DNA of 64,000 bases. Origin: Microcaldota archaeon. Lineage in GTDB: Archaea; Micrarchaeota; Micrarchaeia; Anstonellales; Bilamarchaeaceae. The notes under the pieces are model-generated. The model was not told the DNA's origin and made no database searches. It saw nothing but the letters and a program-made list of their open reading frames with translations. A program made the position numbers and the translations under genes. Shown piece after piece: positions 19,570 through 52,090 of this stretch; within the stretch, counting starts at the first letter, position 1; each line of letters starts with the position of its first letter. Where the stretch lies: contig JAUSHJ010000040.1 of NCBI GenBank assembly GCA_030648615.1, positions 1 through 64,000 on the forward strand, written 5' to 3'.

Positions 19570-19815
19570 GAGACAAAGTATTCCTGCTATTGGCTATTAG
19601 TCAGTGGCAGGTTAGCTAATTATAAATTAACTGCTGTCACGATCGAGGAAACATCGTTTCCGAGATATTTGCTCGATAGAGCAAACGGAAGTGACTGGAA
19701 TTCTGTCTTTAAGAAATACTGAAGACTAGGAAGGCCATATTGCATTAGTTTAGCATTAGTCAATGGGTGATTGAACTAACTAGTTCAATACTCATAAATT
19801 ACAGTAGTAATTTAT
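19570..19815. repeat. Hairpin-rich segment upstream of tRNA-Ala
   Basis: GGAAACATCGTTTCC, TTTGCTCGATAGAGCAAA, TTGAACTAACTAGTTCAA, TAAATTACAGTAGTAATTTA. Confidence 0.7.
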
Positions 19816-19816
19816 T

Positions 19817-19966
19817 GGGCTCGTAGCTCAGTACCGTTTGTATCAATTAATATACTCGGTTGAGTAACAGCAGAGCACCCGCCTTGCACGCGGGGGGCCG
19901 AGGGTGCGAGAGCTTTGTCCTGGCGGACAAAATTAGCCAGCAAAGCCGTCTATCCCTCCGAGTCCA
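19817..19966 (+). tRNA. tRNA-Ala(TGC) with D-loop and T-loop inserts
   Basis: GGGCTCG/CGAGTCC-A acceptor, GCTC...GAGC D stem, CCCGC-CTTGCAC-GCGGG anticodon arm, GAGGG...CCCTC T stem. Confidence 0.88.
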
Positions 19967-22026: not shown

Positions 22027-22134
22027 GACAAGCTTGTTGCTTAGGGCAACAAGATGTCCACGCAATTGTCGAGCGCGACAATGCGCACATTGTTCGAAAC
22101 ATCGAACAATTGTGTTGTTGCAATGCAACAATTG
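22027..22134. repeat. Tandem hairpin array D upstream of gcvH
   Basis: TTGTTGCTTAGGGCAACAA; CGCAATTGTCGAGCGCGACAATGCG; ATTGTTCGAAACATCGAACAAT; TTGTTGCAATGCAACAA. Confidence 0.9.
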
Positions 22135-26821: not shown

Positions 26822-26854
26822 GCTTTTCGGTACACGTCTTTACTATTTCTGATT

Positions 26855-26962
26855 CTACTGTAAATTCTATCGATGTTAAAGAATTCTTCTTTAATAGTTG
26901 TAACTTGCAAAGCAATTTACTCGAATTTACAACAAGACAAATTCCTTTTCAATTTGTCTTTT
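26855..26962. repeat. Palindromic element family F, expanded copy
   Basis: TACTGTAAATTCTAT...GAATTTACAACAAGACAAATT...AATTTGTCTT; extra hairpin TTAAAGAATTCTTCTTTAA nested in the first loop. Confidence 0.8.
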
Positions 26963-30912: not shown

Positions 30913-32358
30913 ATGGTGAATAGTTTATCGGTGCTTGTTCAAAATGGTATTCGCGTAAGTACAGATGCAGAAGAGATGCTTAAGAATATCGAAGATCAGG
31001 AAATTGTTGATAAGCTAATTAAATTAAATAAACCGATGATTACAAAAGAAGATCTGGAAACTTTGTTAAGAAAAGAAGAAACCATAGTAGAAAAGGTTGA
31101 TATATTACGGTCCAGTGATTTCAATCCTATTGCGAAAGAATATTCTCCAGATATAGAAGTTCTACATGCTAAAGATATCACTGGGAAATCCAGGACAAGG
31201 GGAGAAGTTGACGATTTTGTAAGTTATTTTAAGAATCGTTACGAACGCATATCAAGAATGCTTCGAGCCCCTGGGAGATATCCGCAGATGGATCTTGGGG
31301 AAGTTAAACGTCATGTTGGAGAACGTGTGCGTGTAATCGTAACTGTGATGGAAAAACGAGATACACAAAAAGGAAATTTGCTTCTTGAAGTAGAAGATTT
31401 GACAGGGAGATTTAAGATTATAATAACTTCTAATTCTAAAAATGAAAAACTAGAAGAGAAATCTAAAAATATTTTACTTGATGATATAATTGCAATTACC
31501 GGGAAGGTATTTGAACCTTTCATGATTGCTGAAGATATAGAATGGCCCGACATTCCAGTACTTCGGGAAAGGAAATTCTCTGAACTTGATGTTGCAACCG
31601 TTTATATTTCTGACTTACATTTTGGTTCCAAGTATTTTCTTGACCATTATTTGAATCTTTTTGTAGATTGGATTCATGGGAAAGGTGAGGCAAAAGAGCT
31701 CGCTGGAAAAGTAAAATATATGGTAGTCGCCGGTGATCTAGTAGACGGCATAGGCATCTATCCTAATCAAGAAAAAGAATTGGTAGTTAAGGACATCTAC
31801 AAACAATATGATATGTTTGAAGATTTTCTTGAGAAGATTCCTGATTACGTAGAAGTTATAATATCTCCTGGAAATCATGATGCTGTGAGACGTGGAGAAC
31901 CGATGCCAGCCATACCGACAGAATTTATTAAAAACGATGTAATCCGAGTTGGAAATCCATCCACTGTTATCATAGAAGGTCTTAGACATCTGATTTATCA
32001 CGGTACTTCCATGGATTCACTCATTGCAGCATTGCCCAATGCCAGTTATAGTCATCCAGAAAAAGTTATGACGGAGTATCTGAAACGAAGGCATCTTTCA
32101 CCAATATATGGTGGTAATCTTATAATTCCGGAAAAAGTCGACTATCTTGTAATAGATGACCCACCAGATATTCTTCACTGCGGTCACGTTCATAGAAACG
32201 GATACATGCTTTATCGTGGAACGTTGGTAATAAATTCAGGCACTTTTCAGGATAGGACTGATTACCAAATGAAGCAAGGTCACGTACCAACGCCAGCGAT
32301 GGTTCCAGTTTATGAAATGAAATATGGTAGGTTGAGAACCTTAGATTTCAAGGTATGA
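30913..32358 (+). CDS. polB: DNA polymerase D small subunit (DP1)
   Basis: YISDLHFGSKYF, VVAGDLVDGIGIYPNQEKEL, ISPGNHDAVRRGEPMPAI, LHCGHVHRNGY. Confidence 0.95.
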   Translation: MVNSLSVLVQNGIRVSTDAEEMLKNIEDQEIVDKLIKLNKPMITKEDLETLLRKEETIVEKVDILRSSDFNPIAKEYSPDIEVLHAKDITGKSRTRGEVDDFVSYFKNRYERISRMLRAPGRYPQMDLGEVKRHVGERVRVIVTVMEKRDTQKGNLLLEVEDLTGRFKIIITSNSKNEKLEEKSKNILLDDIIAITGKVFEPFMIAEDIEWPDIPVLRERKFSELDVATVYISDLHFGSKYFLDHYLNLFVDWIHGKGEAKELAGKVKYMVVAGDLVDGIGIYPNQEKELVVKDIYKQYDMFEDFLEKIPDYVEVIISPGNHDAVRRGEPMPAIPTEFIKNDVIRVGNPSTVIIEGLRHLIYHGTSMDSLIAALPNASYSHPEKVMTEYLKRRHLSPIYGGNLIIPEKVDYLVIDDPPDILHCGHVHRNGYMLYRGTLVINSGTFQDRTDYQMKQGHVPTPAMVPVYEMKYGRLRTLDFKV

Positions 32359-32379
32359 TTATTATTTGATGTGATATCA

Positions 32380-32469
32380 ATGAATTGTCCCACGGGACAA
32401 ATATCCGTGTGCTTTTCAAGCACATCTGTTGAACAAGGTTCAACATCTCGAAGTGATTTCTCGATGAAT
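32380..32469. repeat. Tandem hairpin array H at the 5' end of polC flanked by a 6-bp direct repeat
   Basis: ATGAAT at 32380-32385 and 32464-32469 bracket TTGTCCCACGGGACAA, TGTGCTTTTCAAGCACA, GTTGAACAAGGTTCAAC, TCGAAGTGATTTCTCGA; 84-nt offset (28 codons). Confidence 0.85.
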
Positions 32470-35400
32470 ACGCAAAATTATTTTATAATTCTCAAAGCCG
32501 AACTGCAGAAAGCATATGCAATTTCCAGCGAAGCTCGTTCGAAAGGTTTTGATCCTGAAAAAGAAGTAGAAGTTAAAATAGCTCCAGACGTTGCAGCAAG
32601 AGTAGAAGGTATTGTGGGTCCAAAGGGAATTGCAGAAATTATACGTAGTATGGAGAAGCAAGGAATTTCCAGAGAAGACGTCGCATTTGAAATAGCAAAA
32701 AAATTAGCTTCCGGAGAAATAATCAAAGGAACAAAAGAGCAACTTGTAGAACAAGCAGTTAGAACTGGATTGGGGATACTTACAGAAGGTGTTCTTGTAG
32801 CTCCAACCGAAGGCATAGCTAAAGTTAGGGTAAAAAATAATCCTGATGGTACTGATTACGTTGCAGTTTATTATTCTGGTCCAATTAGAAGTGCTGGGGG
32901 AACTGCTGTAGCCTTAAGCGTTTTATTGGCAGATGTGGCTCGTAGGGTAGTTGGCATAGGAGATTATAGGGCAACTGATACTCAAATTGAAAGATATAAT
33001 GAAGAGGTAAATATTTACGAATCACGTGTGGCGCATTTGCAATATAAGCCTCCTGAAGAAGATGTTAAATGGGTTGTACAGAATTGCCCAGTTTGTATAG
33101 ATGGTGATCCTACAGAAGAAATAGAAGTGAGTACTTTTCGCAGTGTTCCTGGTGTTGAAACCAATAGAATAAGAGGGGGAGTACCACTTGTTATTTGTGA
33201 AGGGATAGCTCAGAAATGCGCAAAAGTTTTCAAGTATACTAAAAAACTTAACCTTGGCTGGACCTGGCTTGAAAAAATTATTAAAGTTAGTAAAAAAGAA
33301 GACAAGGTTGATATTAAGGTCGATTTTACCTATCTGGAAGGCATGGTAGCAGGAAGACCAGTATTTGCCTACCCATCTAGGATGGGTGGTTTTAGGCTCA
33401 GATATGGAAAAAGTAGGACGAATAGTCTAATGGCAAAAAATATTCACCCTGCAACAATGATTCTTCTTAGTAATTTTCTTGCCTATGGTACGCACATGAA
33501 AATTGAAAGACCAGGTAAAGGTTGTGTTATAGCTGGTCACGAATTGCTTGAACCTCCAGTGGTAAGATTGAAAAATGGCACAGTGACAAAAGTCCATACT
33601 ATCGAACACGCAGAGAATTTGGAAAATCAAGTATCAGAAGTACTTTTTCTTGGGGATATGTTAATTACTTATGGTGATTTCCTAAAATCTAACTATCCGT
33701 TAATTCCAAGTGCTTGGTGTGATGAATGGTTCGTAAAGGAGTTAGAATCAAAAGGAGTTCAGCAGATTAACCTTAGCACAGCCAAAGACGCATTCGAATT
33801 TTCTAGGAAATACGAAGTCCCTCTTTTACCTCTATTTACTTATAACTGGGGAGATTTGAAAAAAGAGGAGCTTGGAAAACTTGCAGATTGGCTTTGTAAG
33901 GTGAATTTACAGTTAAATGAAAACGGAGAGTTGCAAGAAGCTACTATTGATAATGCCCCCGAGAAAAGTTATCTTGAAAACTTACTGGTGGAACATAAAC
34001 TCGCAGATGGAAAAGTAATTCTAGAATCGGATAATGCTTACGCAGTTCTTAACACATTGGGGTTACTGAATCAGACTATTATTAGCATGGATAAATTTAC
34101 TGCTGCATTTTCAAAATATAATTCGGTCTTTGAAATATTAAAAGAGTGTAGTGGAATAGAAATCAAAAATAAATGTCCAAGTTATATTGGCGCAAGAATG
34201 GGTCGTCCAGAAAAAGCCAAGGAAAGAAAAATGGATGGTTCCCCACACGTTCTTTTTCCAACCGGTTCACAGAAAAACAGAAGTATTGCTAAGGTTTACA
34301 AGACTATAAAAGGCAAGGATATAGAAAAAACCATTAATTTGGAGCTTGCAAGGATGCGCTGCATGAATTGTAATTCACTTACATTTTATGCCAGATGTGA
34401 AACCTGTGGTGGAGCAGCAAGACTAGAACGTGCCTGTGTGAAATGTAGCAAGGCAACCGATAGCGAAATTCACTGTGATGAAAAGACAATTATCTACGAT
34501 CGGAGACCAATAAATATAATTTCCATTCTTGAAAATACCAAAAAGAAACTTGGTTTTATGCCAGAAGATGTTAAAGGTATCAAAGGTCTTTCAAATCCTG
34601 AGAGATTTCCAGAACGTGTAGAAAAAGGGTTTTTCCGTTCAAAACACGATGTCTATGTATTTCGAGATGGTACTTCCAGGTTCGATGCTACGGATATACC
34701 TATCACACACTTTATTCCAAAAGAAATTGGGGTAACCATTGAGAAACTACGTACTCTTGGCTATGACAAGGATTATTTTGGGAATGAGCTTACCAAAGAT
34801 GATCAATTGGTTACCATGTATCATCAAGATATAATACTTGCAGATAATGGTGCTGACTATTTCATGAAAGTAGCAAATTTCATGGATGACATGCTGGTAA
34901 ATCTTTATGGGTTACAATCATTTTATAATGTGAAAAAGAAAGATGATTTGATTGGGCATTTATGTGCTGCGCTTTCTCCTCACACTAGTGCAGCAGTGCT
35001 ATGCAGAATAATTGGTTTTACCAGAGCTAATGTTGGATATGGGCATCCTTACTTTCATACTGTAAAGAGAAGAAATTGTTTCCATCCACAAACTCGTATT
35101 TTAATCGAAAGCAGTAAAAATAAAAAATACAAGATCCTCGAAGTTACACTAGAGGATATTACCGAGAATCTACTAGGTGCTAAAAATGCACGCATAAAAG
35201 TTCTGGATAATGATACTATACGAGTAGAATCAGAAGAAGAATTATTTGTTCACAGTATAGATAAGAGTTCAAAACAGATAGTAAAAAGAAAAATAAAATG
35301 TTTCATGAAAACAAAAGCTCCAGAATACTGGATAAGAATAATGACCAAAAATGGAAGAGAGATGTCAGTTACACCGGATCACAATATTCTTTGTATAGAA

Positions 35401-36360
35401 AACGGCATCATGAAATCTATAGAAGCTTCTAATGTAGTTCTTGGGCAGAAAATACCAATACGAGATAAATCAAAGAAATCATTTATACTTGAACCTATTG
35501 TAAAGATAGAAAAATTCATCGAGGTTAAAAATGCTTATTGCTTGGACATAGAAACAGAAAGCGATGAATTAGTAGAGAAAAATGTTCTATTGAACAATGG
35601 TATATTTTGTATTCGATGTGATGGTGATGAAGACTGTGTTATGATGCTTTTGGATGCACTAATAAATTTCTCAAGACATTACCTGGATGAAAGACGTGGA
35701 GGAACAATGGACACTCCATTGGTACTTAGTCCAACCATAGATCCAAAAGAAGTAGATGATGAAGCACACTGCATAGAAATGGTGACCAGTTACCCATTAG
35801 AATTTTATCATGCAACTGAAAGATTTGCATTGCCAAGCGAAGTAAAAATTAAAACTGTAAAAGATGTGCTTGGAAAAGATGAACAGTTTGACATTCCGCT
35901 TACTCATTTAGGTGGCTATATAGATAAGGGAAATATACGTACTGCCTACGTTTTGTTGGATTCAATTCCAGATAAAATAAAAGTGCAATTTGAATTGCAC
36001 GAGCGACTTAGAGGTGTTGACCAGAAGGATGCTGCAGAACGGCTTATTCTTAGTCATTTCATCCCTGATCTCTATGGCAATCTTCGTTCTTTTTCAAGAC
36101 AAACTTTCCGCTGTGGTAATTGCAATGAAAGTTTCCGGAGAGTGCCCCTTGCAGGTAAATGTTATCGTTGCGGTGGAAATCTTCTTTTAACAATTAATAA
36201 AGGCGGAATTCAGAAATATTTAGAGATATCAAGGGGAATAATAGATCGGTATCAGCTTCCAGATTATTTGAAACAGCGGATTGATCTTCTTGACAAAGAG
36301 ATAAAAAGTATATTTGAGGATGATAAGATAAAACAATTAGGTTTGGCAGATTTTATATAA
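32380..36360 (+). CDS. polC: DNA polymerase D large subunit (DP2) with intein
   Basis: YYSGPIRSAGGTAVALSVLLADVARR, IGARMGRPEKAKERKM, KRRN|C...R|CDGDEDC, RGGTMDTPLVL. Confidence 0.95.
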   Translation: MNCPTGQISVCFSSTSVEQGSTSRSDFSMNTQNYFIILKAELQKAYAISSEARSKGFDPEKEVEVKIAPDVAARVEGIVGPKGIAEIIRSMEKQGISREDVAFEIAKKLASGEIIKGTKEQLVEQAVRTGLGILTEGVLVAPTEGIAKVRVKNNPDGTDYVAVYYSGPIRSAGGTAVALSVLLADVARRVVGIGDYRATDTQIERYNEEVNIYESRVAHLQYKPPEEDVKWVVQNCPVCIDGDPTEEIEVSTFRSVPGVETNRIRGGVPLVICEGIAQKCAKVFKYTKKLNLGWTWLEKIIKVSKKEDKVDIKVDFTYLEGMVAGRPVFAYPSRMGGFRLRYGKSRTNSLMAKNIHPATMILLSNFLAYGTHMKIERPGKGCVIAGHELLEPPVVRLKNGTVTKVHTIEHAENLENQVSEVLFLGDMLITYGDFLKSNYPLIPSAWCDEWFVKELESKGVQQINLSTAKDAFEFSRKYEVPLLPLFTYNWGDLKKEELGKLADWLCKVNLQLNENGELQEATIDNAPEKSYLENLLVEHKLADGKVILESDNAYAVLNTLGLLNQTIISMDKFTAAFSKYNSVFEILKECSGIEIKNKCPSYIGARMGRPEKAKERKMDGSPHVLFPTGSQKNRSIAKVYKTIKGKDIEKTINLELARMRCMNCNSLTFYARCETCGGAARLERACVKCSKATDSEIHCDEKTIIYDRRPINIISILENTKKKLGFMPEDVKGIKGLSNPERFPERVEKGFFRSKHDVYVFRDGTSRFDATDIPITHFIPKEIGVTIEKLRTLGYDKDYFGNELTKDDQLVTMYHQDIILADNGADYFMKVANFMDDMLVNLYGLQSFYNVKKKDDLIGHLCAALSPHTSAAVLCRIIGFTRANVGYGHPYFHTVKRRNCFHPQTRILIESSKNKKYKILEVTLEDITENLLGAKNARIKVLDNDTIRVESEEELFVHSIDKSSKQIVKRKIKCFMKTKAPEYWIRIMTKNGREMSVTPDHNILCIENGIMKSIEASNVVLGQKIPIRDKSKKSFILEPIVKIEKFIEVKNAYCLDIETESDELVEKNVLLNNGIFCIRCDGDEDCVMMLLDALINFSRHYLDERRGGTMDTPLVLSPTIDPKEVDDEAHCIEMVTSYPLEFYHATERFALPSEVKIKTVKDVLGKDEQFDIPLTHLGGYIDKGNIRTAYVLLDSIPDKIKVQFELHERLRGVDQKDAAERLILSHFIPDLYGNLRSFSRQTFRCGNCNESFRRVPLAGKCYRCGGNLLLTINKGGIQKYLEISRGIIDRYQLPDYLKQRIDLLDKEIKSIFEDDKIKQLGLADFI
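35077..35616 (+). mobile_element. Mini-intein (180 aa) in DP2, degenerate C-terminal splice motif
   Basis: N|CFHPQTRIL ... SVTPDHNIL ... AYCLDIETESDELVEKNVLLNNGIFCIR|C; no LAGLIDADG seen. Confidence 0.88.
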
Positions 36361-41603: not shown

Positions 41604-41662
41604 TCTACTGTAAATTTTATTTAATTTACAACAGGACAAATTAATTTTGTAATTTGTCTTTT
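41604..41662. repeat. Palindromic element family F copy
   Basis: TACTGTAAATTTTATTTAATTTACAACAGGACAAATTAATTTTGTAATTTGTC. Confidence 0.8.
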
Positions 41663-42315: not shown

Positions 42316-42376
42316 TGTACTATAAATTCTATTGAATTTACAACAGAACAAATCTCTTGTCGATTTGTTCTTGTTT
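42316..42376. repeat. Palindromic element family F copy
   Basis: TACTATAAATTCTATTGAATTTACAACAGAACAAATCTCTTGTCGATTTGTTCT. Confidence 0.75.
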
Positions 42377-45324: not shown

Positions 45325-45948
45325 ATGCAAATTTTAATTGTTCATGGTTTGGATAGCGATAGCAAAGATAATTGGTTTCCTTGGTTGAAAGCACAGCTAG
45401 AGGGTAGAGGTTCTTTGCAAGTCTGTTCGTCTACAGGACAAATCGCTCGATCAGAGATCTCGGTCGCTTCGCGACAGCCGTTCACTGTAGAATGTCCGGA
45501 CATGCCTAATTCTAAGAATCCAAAACAGGAAGAATGGTTAGCTAAATTATCCGAGGTTACCATGAATTGCAAAGATTCTTTTATATTAGTTGGACATAGT
45601 CTGGGTACAATCGCAGTATTGCGTTTCTTGGAAAAGACGAATTTAAAACTAATGGGTGTAATTCTAGTTGCTGGGTTTACTCAAGGTTTTGGAGTTAAGG
45701 CAATTTCAGATTTTTTTAAAACTCCTTTTGATTTTGAAAAAATAAGGACAAAAAGTAAAAAATTTATCGTAATATCGAGCGACAATGATCCATATCTGCC
45801 AATCACTGAAGGTAAAAAGCTTGCAGACAAATTAAATGCAGAATTCATTGTGGAAAAAAATGCCGGACATATTGATAGTGAAAGCGGATTTTCAAAATAT
45901 GAGCGCATACTAGATATAATAATAAAGTTGAAAATGGAGCTGAAATAA
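45325..45948 (+). CDS. RBBP9/YdeN-type serine hydrolase with in-frame insertion
   Basis: VHGLDSDSKDNWFPWLKAQLEGRG ... CPDMPNSKNPKQEEWLAKL ... LVGHSLGTIAVLRFLE. Confidence 0.85.
   Translation: MQILIVHGLDSDSKDNWFPWLKAQLEGRGSLQVCSSTGQIARSEISVASRQPFTVECPDMPNSKNPKQEEWLAKLSEVTMNCKDSFILVGHSLGTIAVLRFLEKTNLKLMGVILVAGFTQGFGVKAISDFFKTPFDFEKIRTKSKKFIVISSDNDPYLPITEGKKLADKLNAEFIVEKNAGHIDSESGFSKYERILDIIIKLKMELK
45405..45500. repeat. In-frame hairpin insertion within the hydrolase gene
   Basis: TCTACAG...CTGTAGA enclosing GATCAGAGATC and GTCGCTTCGCGAC; encodes CSSTGQIARSEISVASRQPFTVE. Confidence 0.65.
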
Positions 45949-51828: not shown

Positions 51829-52090
51829 CATGTGTCAATTCGGCACGGAAACTCATGGTTTGACGCGTAACGCCGCGTCAAATATTGACACGATACGTCG
51901 TGTCAATGGATTGTCAATACTTTGTTGACAAATAGTGTCACGAATTGTCGTGACACTGGTTTTAACCTTGGGAGGAAGTGCCGAATTTACACAACTTTGC
52001 CCTCCCAATTGTTCGACGCTTCGAACAATGGGCATATTGTTGCTTATAGCAACAATCTTGTAGGCTGTGGTGGCCGAATGGGCAAATCAT
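51829..52090 (+). repeat. Two-stem structured element, copy 1, expanded by hairpin insertions
   Basis: CATGTGTCAATTCGGCACGGAAACTCATGGTTT...TTTTAACCTTGGGAGGAAGTGCCGAATTTACACAACTTTGCCC...GGCTGTGGTGGCCGAATGGGCAAATCAT. Confidence 0.85.

Follow-up and report, generated by a model that had tools for sequence, protein, structure and literature searches.

At the start codon of polC, the gene for DP2, the large subunit of archaeal DNA polymerase D, we identified an 84-bp insert bounded by 2 copies of ATGAAT (window 32380-32463, the window being the whole 64,000-nt stretch of DNA analyzed). We put the probability that this insert is a mobile palindromic element at about 0.9, and the repeats to which it belongs are very probably a family of small, non-autonomous mobile palindromic elements found in a few genera of 1 Micrarchaeota family. 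They represent a genuine, little-known type of selfish DNA in Micrarchaeota: the family is multicopy, has empty sites as well as in-frame insertions, associates a Shine-Dalgarno (SD) motif with start codons, and keeps its base pairing despite sequence change.

The 2 ATGAAT hexamers (32380-32385 and 32464-32469; these and all features of the insert described below lie on the forward strand) are spaced 84 nt apart, and the reading frame is open from 32380 across the insert into polC. A sequence-only reading of this DNA had pointed to a ribosome-binding-like sequence before the first hexamer, to recurrence of the hexamer where the DP2 N-terminus begins, and to an offset that keeps the frame, each of which we could confirm. 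The SD-like sequence GTGATATCA (32371-32379), ancestral for polC, now lies 5' of the element. In the left repeat, ATG represents the duplicated target, and AAT overlaps the 5' end of the element, AATTGTCC; most ATGA-type copies have ATG or ATA immediately before AATTG. The ATG of the right repeat is the ancestral polC start, as judged from the starts of relatives and from the position of the PolC_DP2_N domain, whose onset is residue 36 of the extended ORF. From this ATG, polC encodes a DP2 of 1298 aa (32464-36360, forward strand; PF03833, PF24844, and PF24846), with the closest named relatives belonging to Micrarchaeota (58-64% identity). An intein-like insertion was also seen at residues ~924-1030 of the DP2 ORF (window 32371-36360), with a PF14890 match below the curated cut-off.

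The insert had been described as 4 tandem mini-hairpins, of which 3 proved to be perfect and the fourth imperfect. Rather than being built of such hairpins only, it is 84 nt long because it combines a 42-bp, two-hairpin core with a 42-nt, two-hairpin unit placed between the ATATC linker and the P2 hairpin of that core. The P1 hairpin (TTGTCC-CACG-GGACAA, 6 bp with a 4-nt loop, 32385-32400) is followed by the conserved linker ATATC (32401-32405) and by the extra unit (32406-32447), which comprises the hairpins TGTGCTT-TTC-AAGCACA (7 bp with a 3-nt loop, 32408-32424) and TGTTGAAC-AAG-GTTCAACA (8 bp with a 3-nt loop, 32427-32445), each followed by TC. The terminal imperfect hairpin P2, TCGAAGTGATTTCTCGA (TCGA-A-loop-T-TC-TCGA, 32448-32464), has a 2-nt TC bulge and contains the SD-like motif AGTGAT (32452-32457), 6 nt 5' of the ancestral ATG at 32464. 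The 3' module of the family and the association of SD motifs with start-codon copies, both described below, indicate that this motif is supplied by the element.

The polC insert is a dispersed repeat. A 92-bp copy with 91% identity (G000:C69:9671-9762, E 6e-32, G000 being this genome) also sits immediately 5' of an ATG, at the start of another gene, and has the 42-nt extra unit in common with the polC copy; none of the 8 differences between the 2 copies affects the 42 bases in stems (Fisher P = 0.007). Other copies have in common only P1-ATATC and a 3' module, GGTGATnTCTCGATGAA, which was found at gene starts across the genome, and simple copies (e.g., G000:C70:45249, net insert 42) lack the extra unit. 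Alignment of the copies defined the 42-bp core as P1 (TTGTCC-nnnn-GGACAA), ATATC, and P2 (TCGA-X-loop-X'-TC-TCGA). X varies among copies yet pairs with X', the form of P2 is alike in nearly all copies, and P1 pairs are kept at 96.9%, with double changes at 3 pairs, in a small set of 16 family members that are related and hence not independent. With a covariance model (E <= 0.1 per genome, E-values being rough), we identified 38 copies in this genome, 30 in G013 and 15 in G001 (2 genomes of a sister genus), 6 in G007, 4 in G041, and 2 in G009, with almost none in about 50 further relatives. The window itself holds a further core copy with GATC-type ends (19640-19688, reverse strand; cmsearch 44.4 bits, E 6.9e-9) and a weak one (45423-45466, forward strand; 19.7 bits, E 0.007). 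An exact pattern of 24 specified bases had no match in the GTDB genome contigs, a set from which the window's own genome was possibly excluded. Core copies read as MNCPxGQIS.., DELSxGTNIS.., or, antisense, ..SRDLSKGQTD, in several frames and on both strands, and the element copies do not share a conserved encoded peptide. Conservation of the hairpin sequence as protein across species, raised earlier as an argument against mobility, did not occur.

A comparison of the polC 5' end in relatives had been proposed, and we identified starts without the insert in 9 of them (G001, G009, G013, G018, G032, and L125-L128), with polC in relatives beginning within a few residues of the ancestral-start point at 32464. 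The G009 start reads TAGCTAAATGGTGAAATATTCATGGATTATTTC, with GGTGAAATATTC immediately before its ATG. As the genus has 1 genome and no very close strain, the boundaries of the polC insert were drawn from other loci. In lysyl-tRNA synthetase (LysRS), RVTKH is followed in G000 by 16 additional residues where G001 has none, and the enzyme of G001 has 17 extra residues after LSTDK where G000 has none, the alignment being otherwise gap-free apart from a truncated N-terminus. Since the inserts lie at different places in the 2 genera, each gene is the empty site of the other. At the DNA level, GATG is repeated at both ends of the G000 insert and ATG at those of the G001 insert (AAGATGAATCG...CTCGATGCAC). 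Further, a 14-codon insert in an M50 protease splits IEKD|EA, giving IEKD[ELSRGTNISTISLD]EAKH against the uninterrupted IEKDEAVQ of G007, and the insert in GatB lies in a gap of the alignment to solved structures; the nitrilase insert is less clean, with homologues carrying their own loop at that place. Hosts confirmed with Pfam included GatB, LysRS, CN_hydrolase, GrpE, SdhA, M50, and another class I tRNA synthetase. All internal copies examined had lengths that are multiples of 3 and were stop-free in the host frame, and their recognition via long ORFs means that frame-breaking insertions are under-counted. Element copies were also present in intergenic DNA and inside terminator-like double hairpins. 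The earlier likening to Rickettsia palindromic elements (RPEs) is borne out by these results, the copies being numerous, in frame in conserved genes, and at different loci in sister genera.

At gene starts the element behaves in another way. Among ATGA-type copies, 17 of 33 end at an ATG opening at least 60 codons; across the part of the genome sampled, this holds for 22% of ATGA sites overall (binomial P = 1.7e-4). Of the 17 start-type copies (2 of which, the internal LysRS copy and L177, may not be true starts), 15 have an SD motif in the region of P2, vs 2 of the 16 other ATGA-type copies (P = 1.6e-5); subtypes were assigned by a simple rule that leaves a few copies misplaced, and the 2 SD-bearing copies among the other 16 are probably gene starts too. 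In this genome, the start-type hosts included PolB, a nucleotidyltransferase, a KH protein, and a HerA-like ATPase; in relatives, inspection of the sequence alone pointed to TIM, PiT, a cold-shock protein, and ribosomal S14, among others. In PolB, a TAG stop inside the element closes the frame that opens at the upstream ATG, so that initiation must lie further downstream. Several other start-site copies are out of frame or contain stops (C38 and C51, net 50) and leave the downstream start usable, which places the beginning of translation after the element in these genes.

These copies bear on the literal form of the sequence-only reading, in which a mobile element made a 6-bp target-site duplication and lengthened DP2 by 28 translated residues. 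ATGAAT at both ends, the open frame, and GTGATATCA upstream speak for it, as do the read-through in-frame insertions that are well supported elsewhere in the genome. The mobile, multicopy nature of the element and its direct repeats stand; the length of the duplication is not supported, as filled and empty sites at other loci have a 3- to 4-bp repeat, ATG or GATG, and part of ATGAAT is the end of the element. The target duplication is therefore probably 3-4 bp, not 6. Left and right repeats are not always identical (e.g., ATAAA and ATGAAC at C70), and the ends could thus belong to the element itself instead of being a copy of the target. A simple addition of 28 residues is likewise at odds with the SD motif of the element 6 nt before 32464 and with the stops, or lengths not divisible by 3, of start-site copies elsewhere. 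Because the element supplies its own ribosome-binding site, the 28 extra residues need not be translated. Taken literally, this reading is doubtful, whereas retention of the polC start at 32464 is likely.

On the simplest reading, the ribosome-binding site displaced by insertion of the element is replaced by one that the element carries. A core of 42 bp net, flanked by a 3- to 4-bp direct repeat, ATG(A) or GAT(G/C), would have inserted, together with an extra two-hairpin unit, at the start-codon ATG of polC and moved the old ribosome-binding site to 84 nt upstream. Initiation would have been restored because P2 brings an SD motif and ends in TCTCG beside the duplicated ATG. Translation of polC would then most likely begin at 32464 through the SD motif of the element, and a form longer by 28 residues might also arise from 32380. 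Movement would be in trans by an enzyme, possibly via a single-stranded hairpin intermediate. There is about an even chance that the ATGA-type copies go further and constitute a portable translation-initiation module that targets start codons, carries its own SD in a hairpin loop or stem, and rewrites the ribosome-binding sites of hosts including both replicative polymerases, PolB and DP2, with a sister subfamily with ATC or GATC ends going in frame into coding sequence.

A conserved regulatory RNA of the 5' leader, similar to a thermosensor or riboswitch with the SD held in a hairpin, would explain the likeness among copies by shared regulation instead of mobility. Many copies do lie at gene starts, where P2 contains or adjoins the SD and the start codon, stems covary, and P2 in some copies pairs the SD with an anti-SD-like sequence (ATCACC in G013 L182, shuffle z -2.5), so that translation might, as far as the predicted pairing goes, be dampened in those copies. 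A leader RNA is nevertheless improbable, given copies in frame inside enzymes, in terminator-like hairpins, and in intergenic DNA, orthologous genes of relatives without copies, functionally unrelated host genes, and no Rfam match at E <= 1 in window 32000-32800. Less probable still is a translational bypassing element or an intron-like insert removed before or during translation, which hairpins between short direct repeats within genes recall; the internal copies examined, stop-free and multiples of 3 in length, make removal unneeded. That the hairpins formed by chance in a normal N-terminal extension of DP2 is refuted, for although an open 84-nt frame is unremarkable (40% of insert shuffles are also open), only 1 of 20,000 dinucleotide shuffles of the 90 nt gave at least 3 such perfect hairpins, and the insert has a 91% copy elsewhere and a family of dozens.

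We also searched for an enzyme that could move the mobile palindromic element. The single PF01797 (Y1 transposase) match in the genome (G000:C47:14377-14727, L137) is IS200-like, and this TnpA was rejected as the mobilizer, its ends bearing unrelated CCCAGCAC hairpins. A search of the Y1 transposase family in the assembly, which is about 90% complete, found no RAYT-type or autonomous partner for the element. That the terminal hairpin arms are copied from the host, as hinted by a P2 in PolB that can be extended into coding DNA, was rejected as well: in PolB the usual 3' end, TTCTCC-ATGA, is found further upstream, and the arms of other copies are element-encoded.

Nested hairpin arrays are a wider feature of this genome, with 19 arrays of at least 3 hairpins in 384 kb vs none in a control of 1 shuffle per stretch; about 47% of the genome was read as stretches, and the counts are thus a sample. 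In paralogous filled and empty pairs, two-hairpin units of 51-55 bp occupy hairpin feet or loops with a 0- to 1-nt repeat, and longer arrays have a 3- to 6-nt overlap. The extra unit in polC resembles a two-hairpin unit inserted into a core. Units of 51-54 bp with mirrored single-base bulges were observed in G000 at C32 (L070:11731-11781), C54 (L138:9690-9742), and C56 (L084:6289-6342), having no target duplication and often abutting an existing hairpin at its 3' foot; within otherwise identical flanks, one and the same site is occupied by different units. For a 95-nt, four-hairpin array at window 51862-51956, paralogous repeats at window 58546, C69, and C32 provide clean empty sites, with the 6-nt overlap TGGTTT. 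Another four-hairpin array (window 22033-22131) lies immediately 5' of gcvH, with the gcvH reading frame open across it. The double hairpin TGTAAATTC-GATA-GAATTTACA plus GGACAAATT..AATTTGTCC, terminator-like in appearance, recurs outside coding sequence (window 26852-26958, 41609-41658, 42323-42371, and others), and some of its copies hold inserted core elements. A tRNA-Ala(TGC)-like gene at window 19816-19960 carries additional bases in its D- and T-arm regions, among them the hairpin TTTGTCCTGGCGGACAAA; ARAGORN reported no tRNA in the window.

In-frame selfish palindromes are already known from Rickettsia, Wolbachia, and 1 report on a methanogen. New here, within a limited search of openly licensed papers, are a family in small-genome archaea with reciprocal filled and empty sites in essential enzymes and a subfamily that sits on start codons and brings a ribosome-binding site along. 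The element is a natural case in which to test how small mobile DNA can enter essential genes without killing them and how ribosome-binding sites can be replaced in one step, and it is a warning for annotation, as N-termini predicted from such ORFs may be incorrect.

RPEs and the Wolbachia repeats are short, multicopy, and hairpin-forming, have no mobility gene of their own, and occur both in intergenic DNA and in frame in conserved genes; target-site duplication is unsettled for them as well (PMC2229807, PMC10969869). Similar to RPEs and the Wolbachia protein-coding repeats, our element is multicopy, palindromic, in frame in conserved genes, and absent from orthologues. RPEs are described as about 105-150 bp long, with 1 long stem-loop, terminal inverted repeats of about 12 bp, and a conserved peptide, none of which applies here. 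In contrast, the element has a 42-bp core of 2 separate small hairpins with terminal direct repeats, occurs at start codons, to which it brings an SD of its own, and can grow through nesting of further two-hairpin units. It resembles RPEs in how it works without being one of them, as its length, the single long stem, and the conserved peptide do not fit, and we claim no sequence kinship. In M. jannaschii, an archaeon of a different phylum, palindromic elements that have coding potential and lie within genes have been reported (PMC2996958); by their description they work in a similar way, and the kind is not new to archaea. The larger arrays recall REP doublets (PMC3116915) in being inverted pairs of bulged hairpins with no clear target duplication. 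REPINs, however, are described as extragenic and highly conserved in sequence, neither of which is true of an element with in-frame intragenic copies, and the REPIN/RAYT system has a Y1 RAYT transposase, of which we found none in this assembly. Miniature elements of the MITE type (ERIC, RUP, and Correia/NEMIS) are likewise small, non-autonomous, and sometimes fused in frame (PMC2229807), but they have terminal inverted repeats, whereas the core of our element has terminal direct repeats only.
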